Shown here: positions 4,665 through 35,690 of the stretch, piece after piece
Position numbering within the stretch: the first letter of the stretch is position 1
How the letters are laid out: each line of letters opens with the position of its first letter
Source of the DNA: a virus
Length of the DNA stretch: 36,461 nucleotides
Strand: one strand, 5' to 3'
Virus record (IMG/VR): IMGVR_UViG_3300017963_000506
Coordinates: 1-36,461 of that record
Program-made: the position numbers and the translations under genes
Notes under the pieces: generated by a model
What the model was told of the DNA's origin: nothing
Database searches by the model: none
What the model saw: only the letters and a program-made list of their open reading frames with translations

Positions 4665-5924
4665 ATGGCTATTAAGGATTGGTTTAGGCGGAATAAGGTC
4701 AAATCTGATGACTCGGAAACCGGACAAAAGGACTACCAGCTTGTCGTGTATATGCGATCGGACGGCTTTATTCCGGCTATACAATTTTCCGGGGATAACT
4801 TGGAAACCCTTCTCGAAGCGTCAACTTTTTCTTACGCTTGCATTTCTGGAAACTCCGAAGCGATCGCTTCGCTCCCAGCAATAGTTCAAAGGGCCGGAAA
4901 AGCCAATGAAGACAAATGGGTTGAGATCTCAACTCATCCCCTAAATGATCTAATTAAGCACCCATTTGGCACAAATGGCAATCTACCTAAATGGTCATGG
5001 AATCAGTTAGTTGAAACCATGGCCCAGCATATTTACCTGACCGGAAACGCATGGCTGAAACCGGCCTTGATCAAGTCTGGAAAAAATCCGCGGATCAAGG
5101 CCGTTTATCTTTTGATTGAGCCGTCAAAAATGAAGGCACGTGAGGGATCCGACGGAGTTCCTATTGAATACCAATATGGATCCGAGAAATATCGGCCAAA
5201 TGAACTGGTAAACATCCAAAATGCGGCCCCCGGATCCCTTTGGAAGGGTCAGTGCCCATTGCATGCGGCAATGAGGGATGTTGAAATTGATCGAACCGCG
5301 CACAATCGCCAGAAGGCCAATCTCGAAAATCGTGTTGCCCCCGGAATCGTTGTCGAAATAGACGGATTTTTCGGACCTACCGAAGAGCAAAAGCAACAAG
5401 TTCTGAAGGAATTGACCGAAAACTACCAAAAAGCCACCCAAGACGGGACCCCCCTTGTCGTGGGAAAAGGCGCAAAAATACATCCCCCAATTCAAGCCGG
5501 TCAAGCTTCTGACATTTTTGATACTCGCAGATTTTCCAGAGATGGGATGCTGGCCGTTTTTCGGACCCCACCTCCCATTGTTGGGATATACGAAAACGCC
5601 ACACTCCAAAATTTCGCCACAGCGACAAAGATTTGGTGGTTAAATGCCCTTTTCCCCATGCTGAATACTATTTATTCGGCATTAAATAACCAATTGATTT
5701 GGCCAATTTATGGGGATCAGGTCCGTCTTTGGTACGATGTAACAGGATCTGATATCGGCTTGACGATCCTAAAAGATCGTGTCGATGTGGCCCAAGGTCT
5801 TGTGAATCTTGGATATCCGACAAATATAGCAGCGAGACGAGTTGGCCTGAACATGGAACATGTGCCGGATTTGGATCTGGCCAATTCTCAGATTGTCGTT
5901 GCAGGAAGAAATACCGAAAATTGA
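4665..5924 (+). CDS. portal protein, HK97 family
   Basis: Dodecameric ring at the head vertex through which DNA enters and the tail attaches. The 419-residue protein shows the family's order: an N-terminal wing, the LTGNAWL motif, VNIQN, a helical stem (HNRQKANLENRVAPGIVVEI), the RFSRDGMLAVFRTPPPIVGI region, then a C-terminal helix around ALFPMLNTIYSALNNQL. No ribosome-binding site precedes the ATG, and a TTGACA box lies 35 bases upstream, so the message may be leaderless. It starts the head operon. Confidence 0.92.
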   Translation: MAIKDWFRRNKVKSDDSETGQKDYQLVVYMRSDGFIPAIQFSGDNLETLLEASTFSYACISGNSEAIASLPAIVQRAGKANEDKWVEISTHPLNDLIKHPFGTNGNLPKWSWNQLVETMAQHIYLTGNAWLKPALIKSGKNPRIKAVYLLIEPSKMKAREGSDGVPIEYQYGSEKYRPNELVNIQNAAPGSLWKGQCPLHAAMRDVEIDRTAHNRQKANLENRVAPGIVVEIDGFFGPTEEQKQQVLKELTENYQKATQDGTPLVVGKGAKIHPPIQAGQASDIFDTRRFSRDGMLAVFRTPPPIVGIYENATLQNFATATKIWWLNALFPMLNTIYSALNNQLIWPIYGDQVRLWYDVTGSDIGLTILKDRVDVAQGLVNLGYPTNIAARRVGLNMEHVPDLDLANSQIVVAGRNTEN

Positions 5925-25106: not shown

Positions 25107-25982
25107 ATGTCCAGACTAACATCCAAGACATTAGAAGCATGGAAAGGGAATCTTCAAGGATCCTATTTGTCCCGTGGGGACCAAGGGGAAGATATTTACA
25201 CCCTTCAATTACTGCTGAATTCATTTGGATTTGATTTGTCCATTGATGGAGATTTTGGCCCACAAACTGAAGAGCTCGTGGAAAAATTTCAAGAAAAAAG
25301 AATCATTTTACCTGATTCTATTGTTGGCCCAATGACCATTGATGAGTTGATTCATTGTTGGGAAAAAGGATGGAATTTGACGGAAGTCCCTTTTTTGCAC
25401 CGAAGTGGGATCTATGTTTATGGCCCCAAACATCCGTTCGCCGGTTCCATCCCTGATGTTTTTGGGGCAATGTCGACTTTTGGAGGTCCCAACGATTGGG
25501 GAGATCTGATGTATGGACAATCGTTGATTGCCGCACAAACTCCAGATGAGGTCAAGAGGAAATATCCCCAACTAGTTGACGCTGGAATCTTTCGAAAAGA
25601 TGTTGAAACTCTGCCAAGAATCAAAAATCCACATACTGGCAAAATGGTTCAAACGGGGATTTCTTGGATGTTGAATCCGAAAAGTTACTATTTGGCGATG
25701 CGTTGGAGCTACGCACAAAGGACATTGATGTCAAAAGATCCATCAAAATATCCCGTACTTGTGGGCGTGCCTTCCCGAAATCTTTGGGTAATAGTTTGCC
25801 CTACAGATTATGGCCCAGCCAAATGGACTAAAAGAATTGCGGATCTCAGCTATGGGGCCACCGATGCTTTGGCAACAGATGATTCAGGAAAAATCATAGA
25901 AGATGGAATTAGTCTCAAGACAGATTCCAAAGTAGTCTGTGGATGGGTTGCCAATCAAATAGTTTTCGGCCCGGTAAAATAA
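25107..25982 (+). CDS. cell-wall protein: peptidoglycan-binding plus double-psi barrel; endolysin candidate
   Basis: 291 residues. Residues 18-83 are a peptidoglycan-binding_1 domain (YLSRGDQGEDIYTLQLLLNS, then IDGDFGPQTEELVEKFQ). The second domain, from about 118, has STFGGPNDWGD and CPTDYGPAKWTKRIADLSYG (231-250), resembling RlpA/expansin double-psi beta-barrels (D-x-G-P ... R-x-x-D-L-S). Residues Asp234 and Asp246 sit where the conserved acids lie. It follows the holin candidate, so it is the best endolysin candidate, though it has no classical lysozyme, amidase or peptidase motif. Expressed behind leader element C. Confidence 0.65.
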   Translation: MSRLTSKTLEAWKGNLQGSYLSRGDQGEDIYTLQLLLNSFGFDLSIDGDFGPQTEELVEKFQEKRIILPDSIVGPMTIDELIHCWEKGWNLTEVPFLHRSGIYVYGPKHPFAGSIPDVFGAMSTFGGPNDWGDLMYGQSLIAAQTPDEVKRKYPQLVDAGIFRKDVETLPRIKNPHTGKMVQTGISWMLNPKSYYLAMRWSYAQRTLMSKDPSKYPVLVGVPSRNLWVIVCPTDYGPAKWTKRIADLSYGATDALATDDSGKIIEDGISLKTDSKVVCGWVANQIVFGPVK

Positions 25983-26326
25983 TGGAATCTTTTTTTCTTA
26001 AATTGGCTGCAAGTGGATTTGGAACCGCTGTTGCATTAGGCGCGATTTGGCTGGTTTGGAAAACCATAAAAATCAGTAAAACTCCAGAAATAGCAGAATT
26101 TGATGAAGAAAGTAGCGTAGTTAGGCGGCCAAGTTGGCCCGGAGTGCCAAGGAATGCTGTAACTGAAGATGTTTGCGTAATCCGACAAAAAATGATTTCC
26201 AATCAAATTGATATGTTGGCCAAGGATGTCAAGAAATCCGCCCAAACAATTGATGATGTTTCAGAGAAAATTGATCAAGTTAAAGAGGTCGTTGCTGTTT
26301 TAAAGGATCGGTCAAATAGGTCTTGA
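25982..26326 (+). CDS. spanin-like / membrane-anchored coiled-coil protein, 114 aa
   Basis: From ATG 25982 (TAATG overlap): one N-terminal TM segment (LAASGFGTAVALGAIWLVWK), a linker, then a C-terminal coiled coil (MISNQIDMLAKDVKKSAQTI and DDVSEKIDQVKEVVAVLKDR). An i-spanin or a XhlA-like helper of lysis are both possible. No strong ribosome-binding site, so it probably depends on coupling to the gene before. The stop codon is inside the TTGACA of the next promoter. Confidence 0.5.
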   Translation: MESFFLKLAASGFGTAVALGAIWLVWKTIKISKTPEIAEFDEESSVVRRPSWPGVPRNAVTEDVCVIRQKMISNQIDMLAKDVKKSAQTIDDVSEKIDQVKEVVAVLKDRSNRS

Positions 26327-26350
26327 CACCAATTCCGTTTTTGCTACGGT
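26323..26350 (+). promoter_or_regulatory. promoter of the RNA / tRNA / recombination block
   Basis: TTGACA (26323-26328), 16-base spacer, TACGGT (26345-26350) with TGC just before it (extended -10). Expected start point is near 26357-26358, which is exactly where the predicted structured RNA begins. It likely drives the RNA, the tRNA-like gene and the recombination genes. Confidence 0.6.
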
Positions 26351-26357
26351 CTTTCCC

Positions 26358-26472
26358 ACAGGGTTGATATCCAAAAAAATAAATCGTAGGCCAAAAGGCT
26401 GAATTTTCAAAAATGGGTTTGTGGTAATCCTTTTTCCTTGTTGTGTTTAGCTGGGATACCAACCCTGTTTTT
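26358..26472 (+). ncRNA. predicted structured RNA with paired ends
   Basis: CAGGGTTGATATCC (26359-26372) pairs with GGATACCAACCCTG (26454-26467) with one mismatch; adding A26358-T26468 gives about 14 pairs. The closing T run is 26468-26472. Transcription is predicted to begin at the 5' arm. The 81-base interior includes GGCCAAAAGGC. A leader RNA that acts on transcription (put-like antitermination), or a free small RNA with paired ends like 6S RNA, are both possible. Confidence 0.5.
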
Positions 26473-26540
26473 GGCTCGCTGAATGGTTTAGCACTTGGCT
26501 GTTAACCAAGAGTATGTAGGTTCGATTCCTACACGGGCCT
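26473..26540 (+). tRNA. tRNA-Asn (anticodon GTT), shortened D arm
   Basis: Acceptor GGCTCGC (26473-26479) pairs with ACGGGCC (26533-26539), except the seventh pair. The anticodon stem is CTTGG/CCAAG with loop CTGTTAA (anticodon GTT). T arm GTAGG/CCTAC with a 7-base TTCGATT loop; variable loop of 5. Only 14 bases separate acceptor and anticodon stems (19 or more is usual), so the D arm is poor; CTGA/TTAG is the best fit. Discriminator T, no encoded CCA. It may be functional, a decoy, or degenerate. Confidence 0.6.
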
Positions 26541-26552
26541 TTGGAGGGAATT

Positions 26553-27404
26553 ATGAAAGTGAGTACAGATCCATCGAAGCCCGGTATGCATTATGGAATC
26601 AAATTTGAAGACTACCTAAAAATTGACGCGGTATCCAAATCGATTCTTTGGAAATTTCACCAGACGAGCCCCGCAGGATTACAGCATTGGCTGAAAAATC
26701 CTGGGGACCCAACGGAAGCTATGACCTTAGGATCAATGGTTGATATTCGGGTTTCCGATGGATTGAAAGCCTTCCAATCCCAATTTCAGCGAACACCCCC
26801 AGATCTTAGAAGGGACAAACGAAGTAAGAAATATCAAGATTTTCTCACAGCTTGCGGATCCAAGACCCCAGTCAAGGCAATTGATTATGACAAAGTAGAA
26901 ACTATGTATCAGAAAATCATGGATTATCCCCTTGCTAGAAAGCGGATTGAGGGAGCAACAAAGCAATTGAGCCTTGTTTGGGATCATGATGGTCATATTC
27001 CCATGAAAGGCCGTCCTGATTTTGTAGCCTTTATTAATGAACAGCCTGAACTTGTTGATCTCAAAGTATCACAATCTATCAAACCGGAATATTTCATCAA
27101 AACGGCGGATAGATTTGGCTATCATTGGCAAGCGGCAATTTATCTTGACGGATTTTCCCAACTTCAGGGATTTGGGTGTCACAATTTTTCGTTCGTCGTG
27201 ATTGAAGATCATCCGCCGTTTGGTGTGGAAGTGTTCAAGCTTGCCTATCCCGCGATCGAATTGGGAAGGGAAGAATACCGCGAAACCCTTAAGAATTATT
27301 ACGATTGTGTCTTGCAAGAAAAATGGCCCGCAAGTTCTGGCCAAATACAAGTATTGGATTTTCCTATTTGGAGATATCCGAAAATGGAGGTAGAAAATGT
27401 CTAA
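26553..27404 (+). CDS. RecE-like (PD-(D/E)XK) exonuclease
   Basis: 283 residues from ATG 26553, ten bases after GGAGGG, immediately behind the tRNA-like gene. PD-(D/E)XK core: GRPDFVAFI (Asp155), ELVDLKVSQ (Asp169, Lys171), then FGYHWQAAIYLDG with conserved Gln193 and Tyr197. LGSMVDI near residue 60 is the family's N-terminal helix motif with D instead of H. It should resect double-stranded phage DNA for annealing. Followed directly by its likely partner. Confidence 0.85.
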   Translation: MKVSTDPSKPGMHYGIKFEDYLKIDAVSKSILWKFHQTSPAGLQHWLKNPGDPTEAMTLGSMVDIRVSDGLKAFQSQFQRTPPDLRRDKRSKKYQDFLTACGSKTPVKAIDYDKVETMYQKIMDYPLARKRIEGATKQLSLVWDHDGHIPMKGRPDFVAFINEQPELVDLKVSQSIKPEYFIKTADRFGYHWQAAIYLDGFSQLQGFGCHNFSFVVIEDHPPFGVEVFKLAYPAIELGREEYRETLKNYYDCVLQEKWPASSGQIQVLDFPIWRYPKMEVENV

Positions 27405-28266
27405 AGAGATGGTAGTTCACGATCAAGATGGAGTGGTTATTCCGTCGAATGAATTTACACCTATTCCACTCAATTTGATCAAGGAACATCAGTCGGCCTT
27501 GAAGGAAATGATGAGGGCAATTCTTCAAGAAAATGTTGATTTTGGAATCATTCCTGGAACGAACAAACCAAGTCTTTGGAAGCCGGGAGCCGAAAAGATT
27601 CTTTCGAGATTCCGGATTCATGTGGGTCAACCGGTGATTGAGGATATGGGCTCCGAGCAAGAAATTAGGATTAGAGTGATGCTTCCCGGAATCACACCTG
27701 ATGGAATTTGTCGCGGCTTTGGGATTGGAGAATGTAGTTCTTTCGAGTCCAAATACCGCTGGAGAAAAGCTGTTTGTCAGGAGGAATATGACGAAACCGA
27801 TCCCTTTGAACGTCGCAAAAAATGGAATAAAGATGGAACCTATCAACATCAAATCCAGACCTCGGCCGCCGATCTGGGGAATACAATCCTGAAAATGGCC
27901 AAGAAACGGGCAATTGTTGATTTGGCGGTTACCGCAACGGCCGCTTCAGATTTTTTCTCTCAGGATTTCGAAGATGAAAGCCAACCAAGGCAGACTTCAA
28001 GACGAAAAAAAGAAAAACAACACATTCAGGTCTATGAAGGAATAATCAAAAATCTCCATCAACAACCTGGAAAAACCGGGAATAAAACTTGGATCAAATT
28101 CGGGATCCAAATAGATGATGATAGCTGGATTAACACCTTTTCAGAGGAAATCGGTCAAAATGTAATGGAAATTCTTGACAGTCCAGATCCAGTAATGGTT
28201 AGAATTGAATATACAACGGATAAATATGGGAAAAAAGTCGAAAGATTCGAGGTCTTAAGTGAGTGA
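27397..28266 (+). CDS. phage recombination partner protein (putative single-strand annealing)
   Basis: 289 residues, overlapping the exonuclease by eight bases, with TGGAGG upstream. Signature segments are VDFGIIPGTNKPSLWKPGAE, FESKYRWRKAV and GNTILKMAKKRAIVDLAVTA, ending TAASDFFSQDFEDE; I know these from phage proteins encoded next to RecE-like nucleases. A C-terminal OB-like region (YEGIIKNLHQQPGKTGNKTW) follows a basic linker. Annealing activity is inferred from gene pairing, not from a recognised fold. Confidence 0.6.
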   Translation: MSKEMVVHDQDGVVIPSNEFTPIPLNLIKEHQSALKEMMRAILQENVDFGIIPGTNKPSLWKPGAEKILSRFRIHVGQPVIEDMGSEQEIRIRVMLPGITPDGICRGFGIGECSSFESKYRWRKAVCQEEYDETDPFERRKKWNKDGTYQHQIQTSAADLGNTILKMAKKRAIVDLAVTATAASDFFSQDFEDESQPRQTSRRKKEKQHIQVYEGIIKNLHQQPGKTGNKTWIKFGIQIDDDSWINTFSEEIGQNVMEILDSPDPVMVRIEYTTDKYGKKVERFEVLSE

Positions 28267-28777
28267 ATCTCATTACCTTCTTTCAGTGGATCCGGGCAAG
28301 ATTTCCGGCTGGGCCATTTTCAAATTACCCCATCTTTTAATTGCCTATGGCCAGCTGAAAATGGACAAGTCAGAGCCGTGGGTCGAATTTTGGGATTATC
28401 ATTGTCATTATGATGGGGATTGGAGAATCATCTGTGAATCCCAGTTCATCCCCAACATTCCTTTCTCTGTCAGTAAATCACAAAAATTGGAATTATTCTC
28501 AAAGCAACAAAAAGCTTTGAAGATCGCCAATTCGGCTGGGATGTGGGAAGGCATGGCACAATACCTTGGATGGGAGATCATGGACCAAGTTCATCCCAAT
28601 ACTTGGAGGTCTGCGATCTTCGGAAAACGGAAGATGACCGTCGATCAAGCCAAGAAAATGTCTGTGGAATTAGTGAATCATACCTATGAACTGGCCTTGA
28701 AGAAATACCAACACCATACGGCCGAAGGGATCTGCATTGGTATGTATGCCAAACAACAGATTTTAACCGGGATTTGA
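28259..28777 (+). CDS. RuvC-like Holliday junction resolvase (putative)
   Basis: 172 residues from GTG 28259, overlapping the previous stop. RNase H-like fold with catalytic Asp11 in SVDPGKISGWA, Glu60 in RIICESQFI, and a C-terminal HHTAEGICIGMYA (His152, His153, Glu156) where RuvC has D-x-x-D-A. It ends the recombination operon. The stop is in TTGACAAAGAG, the shared promoter-like motif. Confidence 0.75.
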   Translation: MSESHYLLSVDPGKISGWAIFKLPHLLIAYGQLKMDKSEPWVEFWDYHCHYDGDWRIICESQFIPNIPFSVSKSQKLELFSKQQKALKIANSAGMWEGMAQYLGWEIMDQVHPNTWRSAIFGKRKMTVDQAKKMSVELVNHTYELALKKYQHHTAEGICIGMYAKQQILTGI

Positions 28778-28869: not shown

Positions 28870-29640
28870 ATGTTAGGATTTTACGCCGCTTTTTTTCTTG
28901 CCTTCAGTTCTCCAAACCCTTGGAATTTTGCTGTCATTGGCGACATTCAGGCCCGACCGAGAATATACAGAAAAGCCATCCAACAGATGCAAAAAAATTC
29001 ATTCGATTTTGGCGTAAATCTTGGCGATATTCATTGGTGCGCAGATAAAAGAGCTTGGAAACGAAAACTACAATTAGCGCAATTGACCCAATTCCCGTGG
29101 CGTTGGGTTATTGGCAATCATGAATTATGGACCTGTCAAACAAGACCAAGAATGCTGTTTAAGTATCGGAGTGATTTTGTCAGGTTGTTTGGCCCCAGGA
29201 TTCAATCCTGGATTCATAAAGGCTGGAAATTTGTGATCCTTGATACTGCGAGTCCGTATATCCCAAAGGGCGATATTCTCCAAATTCGGCAAATACTACA
29301 AAATCAACAAATACCAACCATGATTTTCGCTCATAGGGGTATCCCCATCCCGAAAAGCTTCAAGATCGGAAGGCGGCAATATTACTCCTCAATGGGTCCA
29401 CTATATCACAAGAAAAGAAATCGCCAATTATGGCAAATCATTGACAAAAATCGTCAGTGGATCAAGGTTATCTTTCATGGGCATTATCACGCCTATAGGA
29501 GATATGTTTTTCCCAATGGCATTCTCGGGATTTGTTCGGGGGGCGGAGGGGGTACCCTCCAAAGAAAATCCGACTTTTACCATTGGCTGAAAATTCGGAT
29601 TCACAAACACCAATTTAAAATCGAGGTCAAAAAGCTATGA
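28870..29640 (+). CDS. calcineurin-like metallophosphoesterase, probably exported
   Basis: 256 residues. Motifs in order: VIGDIQ (Asp25; the usual D-x-H has Gln instead of His), NLGDIHW (Asp53), IGNHELW (Asn83, His84), IFAHRG (His155) and IFHGHYHAY (His203, His205). The N-terminus MLGFYAAFFLAFSS is a short hydrophobic stretch like a signal peptide without basic residues. No ribosome-binding site precedes the ATG. The substrate is unknown. Missing the first His may reduce one metal site. Confidence 0.7.
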   Translation: MLGFYAAFFLAFSSPNPWNFAVIGDIQARPRIYRKAIQQMQKNSFDFGVNLGDIHWCADKRAWKRKLQLAQLTQFPWRWVIGNHELWTCQTRPRMLFKYRSDFVRLFGPRIQSWIHKGWKFVILDTASPYIPKGDILQIRQILQNQQIPTMIFAHRGIPIPKSFKIGRRQYYSSMGPLYHKKRNRQLWQIIDKNRQWIKVIFHGHYHAYRRYVFPNGILGICSGGGGGTLQRKSDFYHWLKIRIHKHQFKIEVKKL

Positions 29641-35411: not shown

Positions 35412-35535
35412 GATCCATTCGGCATTCAACATGTTGCTGCAAAGGATCTATTTACTCGAGCTCAGAATCGAAGCGGTTAGCGGTAGGGTTGAAGCGATTG
35501 GGAAAGAGATATCGAAGGGGATCGAAAACCTTTGA
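35344..35535 (+). CDS. small coiled-coil protein, 63 aa
   Basis: GAGG lies about ten bases before ATG 35344. Entirely helical: EQVQGFFRSYGQIGTEIHSA and RIYLLELRIEAVSGRVEAIG, with regular heptads. Similar in style to the coiled coils of the paralog family. Last gene before the terminator. Confidence 0.55.
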   Translation: MKEESYLEQVQGFFRSYGQIGTEIHSAFNMLLQRIYLLELRIEAVSGRVEAIGKEISKGIENL

Positions 35536-35575
35536 CGCGAAAGCTCATGCCTGTTAACCTAAATCATTCTCTGCC

Positions 35576-35614
35576 GGTAACCACCCTGTTTAAAACTCAA
35601 GGTTACCAGTGGTT
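35576..35614 (+). promoter_or_regulatory. two competing stems before the terminator
   Basis: GGTAACC (35576-35582) pairs with GGTTACC (35601-35607). AACCAC (35579-35584) can instead pair with GTGGTT (35609-35614). The two share bases, so only one can form. It lies just before a strong terminator, an attenuator-like layout, or simply an operator. Confidence 0.3.
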
Positions 35615-35619
35615 TTATT

Positions 35620-35656
35620 GAAGCTCACTTCTGCAAAAGTGGGCTTCTTCTTTTTC
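35620..35656 (+). terminator. rho-independent terminator
   Basis: GAAGCTCACTT (35620-35630), loop CTGCAA, AAGTGGGCTTC (35637-35647): 11 pairs with one T-G, followed by TTCTTTTTC. Ends the accessory small-gene transcript. Confidence 0.85.
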
Positions 35657-35690
35657 GTGTTTTTGGGACCCATTAAAGACGGATGGTACG

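Follow-up and report, generated by a model that had tools for sequence, protein, structure and literature searches.

Phages have leader terminators near early or late promoters; one example is pR'-tR' of phage lambda, whose terminated leader is known as lambda 6S RNA. In lambdoid phages, terminators stand ahead of most early genes, and the putRNA of phage HK022, which is ~70 nt long and forms two long stem-loops, acts on RNA polymerase (PMC9378689). The criteria used by PMC12207403 describe canonical intrinsic terminators as having loops of 3-13 and a stem-loop of at most 59 nt.

We analyzed a gap between a gene for a small, probable membrane protein and an exonuclease gene (26327-26555) in an uncultured phage, IMG/VR virus record IMGVR_UViG_3300017963_000506, whose whole stretch of 36461 bases, classed as linear, is the window referred to below. 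We conclude that positions 26323-26472 are likely a plausible but ordinary phage regulatory leader. Like lambda pR'-tR', the locus combines a promoter-like site, a predicted short leader, a terminator-like stem with a U-run and, further along that strand, phage genes. The elements of such a gate, in which a terminator follows within ~200 nt of a promoter and ahead of the operon, are present, but neither the promoter nor the terminator is strong. Unlike in lambda, the first bases of the RNA pair with its last bases across 81 bases, and the genes downstream are a tRNA and recombination genes. No antiterminator family was recognized among the scanned early-region proteins, many of which match nothing.

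The first-pass annotation had raised a put-like antitermination RNA and a 6S-like RNA as possible identities. The predicted RNA resembles HK022 putRNA in lying at or near the start of an early-type phage transcript. However, it is 115 nt long, and a single long-range stem closes a weakly folded interior of 81 nt, so that both size and shape are wrong for a put-type RNA of ~70 nt with its two long stem-loops, and this identity is not supported. With bacterial 6S RNA it shares small size and paired ends, but it lacks a long irregular helix interrupted by a central bubble; Rfam yields no 6S match in the window at the gathering score and none in 26250-26570 at E values up to 10. A group I intron and a self-cleaving ribozyme were rejected because they have no Rfam match. 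We also rejected a mobile element with terminal inverted repeats, as neither a target-site duplication nor a second copy is visible in the window.

Gene order and the tRNA-Asn-like gene

All genes read in this contig are on the + strand. Terminase, portal, capsid, tail and baseplate genes are followed by the lysis side and then the recombination side (Table 1). The tRNA and recombination genes announced downstream of the promoter-like site are indeed there, identified as an Rfam tRNA, an exonuclease and a RuvC-like resolvase. We sought relatives through the endolysin, exonuclease, terminase, capsid and baseplate proteins, the phrog_10048 protein and an exonuclease alignment. No close phage relatives were found in the collections searched, only distant ones at ~21-46% identity; the best matches are 34-41% identical for the terminase and ~34% for the exonuclease. 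From its position and its neighbors in other phages, the phrog_10048 protein is possibly a recombination protein. Its gene neighbors exonuclease genes in this contig, as it does in phages of Cylindrospermopsis and Acinetobacter, and in a Pseudomonas phage it adjoins an annotated endonuclease. The recombination block also encodes, at 28870-29640, a calcineurin-like metallophosphoesterase with a hydrophobic N-terminus.

Table 1 Features at the junction of the lysis and recombination genes
Feature	Position	Strand	Evidence or remark
Endolysin-like protein	25107-25982	+	
Small membrane protein (probable)	25982-26326	+	Last lysis-side gene, upstream of the gap
Promoter-like site TTGACA-16-TACGGT, TG-extended -10	26323-26350	+	Sequence, matrix scan
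5' arm ACAGGGTTGATATCC of long-range stem	26358-26372	+	A26358 is the predicted start
81-nt interior with a weak fold: GGCC-AAAA-GGCU hairpin and minor stems	26373-26453	+	Folding
3' arm GGATACCAACCCTGT of long-range stem	26454-26468	+	
TTTTT run	26468-26472	+	First T is the last paired stem base, partner of A26358
tRNA-Asn(GUU)-like gene	26473-26540	+	Rfam RF00005, 48.8 bits; directly 3' of the T-run
RecE-type exonuclease	26556-27404	+	phrog_412, PF12684; GGAGG ribosome site just upstream
phrog_10048 protein, function unassigned	27397-28266	+	Position and neighbors in other phages
RuvC-like Holliday junction resolvase	28259-28777	+	

The GUU anticodon of the tRNA-like gene is read directly from the sequence. 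All three arms are intact, namely the D-arm, the anticodon arm (CTTGG CTGTTAA CCAAG, anticodon GTT) and the T-arm, and a tmRNA was rejected on account of the intact anticodon arm. Alignment with phage tRNA-Asn genes and with the Rfam model shows that four bases are absent at the acceptor/D-arm junction (GGCTCG----CTGAATGG), where a tRNA-Asn would have a 7-bp acceptor and a two-base linker. This absence would explain why ARAGORN reports no tRNA at 26473-26540. The first six bases of the acceptor strand still pair with the 3' strand, and the four-base deletion is therefore either recent or an assembly error.

The position of this gene bears on how a short RNA might arise. Because the tRNA begins right after the T-run, RNase P cleavage at its 5' end (26473) would leave a 3' end at 26472, and a stable RNA of ~115 nt could be cut in this way from a longer transcript, its paired ends being protective. 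The four missing bases make such processing doubtful and there is no conservation, and we consider this origin improbable.

Promoter-like site, paired ends and T-run

The sequence bears out the promoter-like site proposed by the first-pass annotation, with a predicted start near 26358 that coincides with the first base of the stem. A perfect -35 TTGACA (26323-26328) is separated by a 16-base spacer from TACGGT (26345-26350), and seven bases lead on to A26358. The -10 hexamer agrees with TATAAT at three of six positions, and TGC directly 5' of it forms an extended -10. The site is missed by a simple promoter scan that applies a 4-of-6 rule. Using an approximate sigma-70 matrix with an extended -10 bonus, we found that the site ranks fourth on the + strand, that the - strand has none as good, and that no second site of similar grade occurs between 26200 and 26560. 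Shuffled sequences contain 2.0 sites of equal grade per strand with the bonus; without it, they contain 7.3 per strand vs 7 in the window itself. Over the whole window, promoter grade is at chance level.

The upstream ORF (25982-26326) ends in TGA (26324-26326), which the -35 overlaps, and the -35 is in part accounted for by this context. TTGACA occurs more often in the contig than expected (37 vs 25.7), and among its + strand sites 6 of 21 overlap gene ends, with the stop codons at 5921, 9311, 18036, 19254, 26323 and 28774 overlapped. By a post hoc estimate, a promoter placed 7 bases 5' of the stem would arise by chance in ~0.1% of cases. The placement is thus unusual, as had been remarked, but to say that it looks designed is too strong for a -35 that doubles as stop-codon context and a hexamer this frequent.

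The stem, too, is as first described, with ~14 pairs closed by 26454-26468, an 81-base interior and five T. Watson-Crick pairs form at 14 of its 15 positions (9 + 5), with an A/C mismatch at 26367/26459, and the stem-loop measures 111 in total. To gauge chance, we made 60 dinucleotide shuffles of the window and counted inverted repeats with at least 14 of 15 pairs and a loop of 30-150 bases. An equally good stem is present in one third of them (20/60, mean 0.43), and none (0/60) has such a stem with at least five T among the six bases directly after it. Even under a looser definition (11/12 pairs), stems with a T tail occur only three times in the 570 kb around 87 exonuclease loci. The folding energy of the stem region is unremarkable (z -1.6 to -2.4). 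The single elements, promoter and stem, are each near chance, and it is their arrangement that argues for function; the combination of stem, T-run and promoter spacing is unlikely by chance, though it was picked after the fact.

Searches for homologs of the RNA bear on the same question. In blastn searches of phages and plasmids, good matches are confined to the tRNA part, and the remainder gives short, weak matches. A pattern for the 3' arm hits 104 stretches in the viral contigs of IMG/VR, and the 5' arm lies upstream in none of the loci fetched; both arms as a gapped pattern have no match in IMG/VR, nor does the tRNA 3' half as a pattern give one. The 87 loci around related exonucleases contain no comparable leader. 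Four of them carry a tRNA, for Met or Ser and on the opposite strand, and none carries tRNA-Asn.

Much of this would also be expected if chance had placed a T-run and an inverted repeat with a long loop beside a stop-codon-derived TTGACA, the gap then being the 5' flank of the tRNA gene. The stem frequency in shuffled windows, the ordinary folding energy, the chance-level promoter grade and the missing homologs all agree with this. What it leaves poorly explained is the joint occurrence of T-run and promoter spacing, itself selected post hoc, and we regard a chance origin as rather unlikely.

The T-run directly follows the stem, as in a canonical intrinsic terminator, though it is short. The dimensions differ from those of that class, with a loop of 81 vs a median of 4 and a length of 111 vs at most 59, and the U-run is weak. 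The d'Aubenton-Carafa score is below threshold at -22 to -31. Thus, the stem 26358-26468 is not a canonical intrinsic terminator. These properties also weigh on whether stem and T-run terminate the lysis operon (25107-26326), with the promoter-like site as a by-product of TGA in a TTGACA context. The stem does stand directly after the last lysis-side gene, and the overlap of TTGACA with other gene ends fits such a by-product. On the other hand, the terminator score is poor, and the 83 bases that remain would offer no good promoter to the tRNA and exonuclease genes; we judge a lysis terminator unlikely.

A second predicted promoter-RNA-terminator unit

The second-best site of the matrix scan belongs to a predicted unit at 35532-35660, where TTGACG-17-TAACCT, likewise TG-extended, lies over a stop codon. 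The predicted RNA after this promoter-like site is ~90 nt long, with two hairpins (z -4.28) and a canonical-looking intrinsic terminator at its end. An N6/N4 DNA methylase gene starts some 40 bases 3' of the unit. No phage homolog of this RNA was found, and Rfam gives no match above threshold. The unit is a better-supported small-RNA candidate than 26358-26472, and from it we suggest that this phage may put short terminated RNAs where gene blocks meet.

Proposed leader between lysis and recombination genes

Our best reading of 26323-26472, which we put forward tentatively, is a leader close to its promoter, with a terminator-like stem that is weak and has a long loop; RNA start, termination or pausing, read-through and any regulation are predicted from sequence. 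The leader would sit at the junction of the lysis and recombination genes. RNA polymerase would start near 26358, and the first 15 bases of the nascent RNA would pair with bases 97-111, just 5' of the U-run, to give the terminator-like stem. Part of the polymerases may pause or stop there, releasing a short RNA of ~115 nt, and the remainder, with or without an antitermination step, would continue into the tRNA-Asn-like and exonuclease/resolvase genes.

Favoring this leader are a stem with T-run that no shuffled window matched and a promoter-like site seven bases upstream of it, which is among the four best on the + strand. The dominance of the end-to-end stem in the predicted ensembles, the frequency of terminators ahead of lambdoid early genes and the predicted second unit at 35532-35660 also speak for it. 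Against it stand the absence of a homolog or covariation, a -10 with half its positions matched, the non-canonical loop and length, the negative terminator score, a site frequency at chance without the extended -10 bonus, and a -35 partly derived from a stop codon. The 83 bases from the T-run to the exonuclease start are mostly tRNA and hold no promoter of comparable grade. Because there is no other comparable local promoter, transcription of the tRNA and recombination genes probably crosses the stem, whether it starts at 26358 or farther upstream. If the terminator at this point were strong, the downstream genes would be silenced; if it were weak, or if antitermination overrode it, it would set their level. 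With its long loop, short U-run and negative score, the stem resembles a weak terminator or a pause site more than a strong terminator.

Folding predictions also allow transcripts from 26358 and from upstream to behave differently. In upstream transcripts, 26328-26343 could pair with 26408-26426 and delay the 26358/26468 stem; termination would then be limited to RNAs from 26358. For RNAs from 26323, this alternative fold persists until ~26465 and comes close to the long stem in stability, and 26325-26343 is 79% identical to 26455-26473. However, the fold is not significant (z -1.85 for the chosen segment, -0.27 for 26323-26453) and includes the promoter spacer. The end-to-end stem, moreover, dominates the predicted ensemble of full-length RNAs from 26358 and from the upstream starts tried (26300, 26250 and 26200). 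Such a switch is very improbable. We attach just as little credence to a terminator that acts only on its own promoter, in which 26328-26343 of upstream transcripts would pair with the interior, or form a pseudoknot with the end-to-end stem, and permit read-through into the tRNA and recombination genes.

If the promoter-proximal leader is real, it would offer an unusually long-loop leader stem as a terminator candidate, and it would be the control point where the lysis genes give way to the recombination genes, in a phage for which no close relatives were found in the collections searched.
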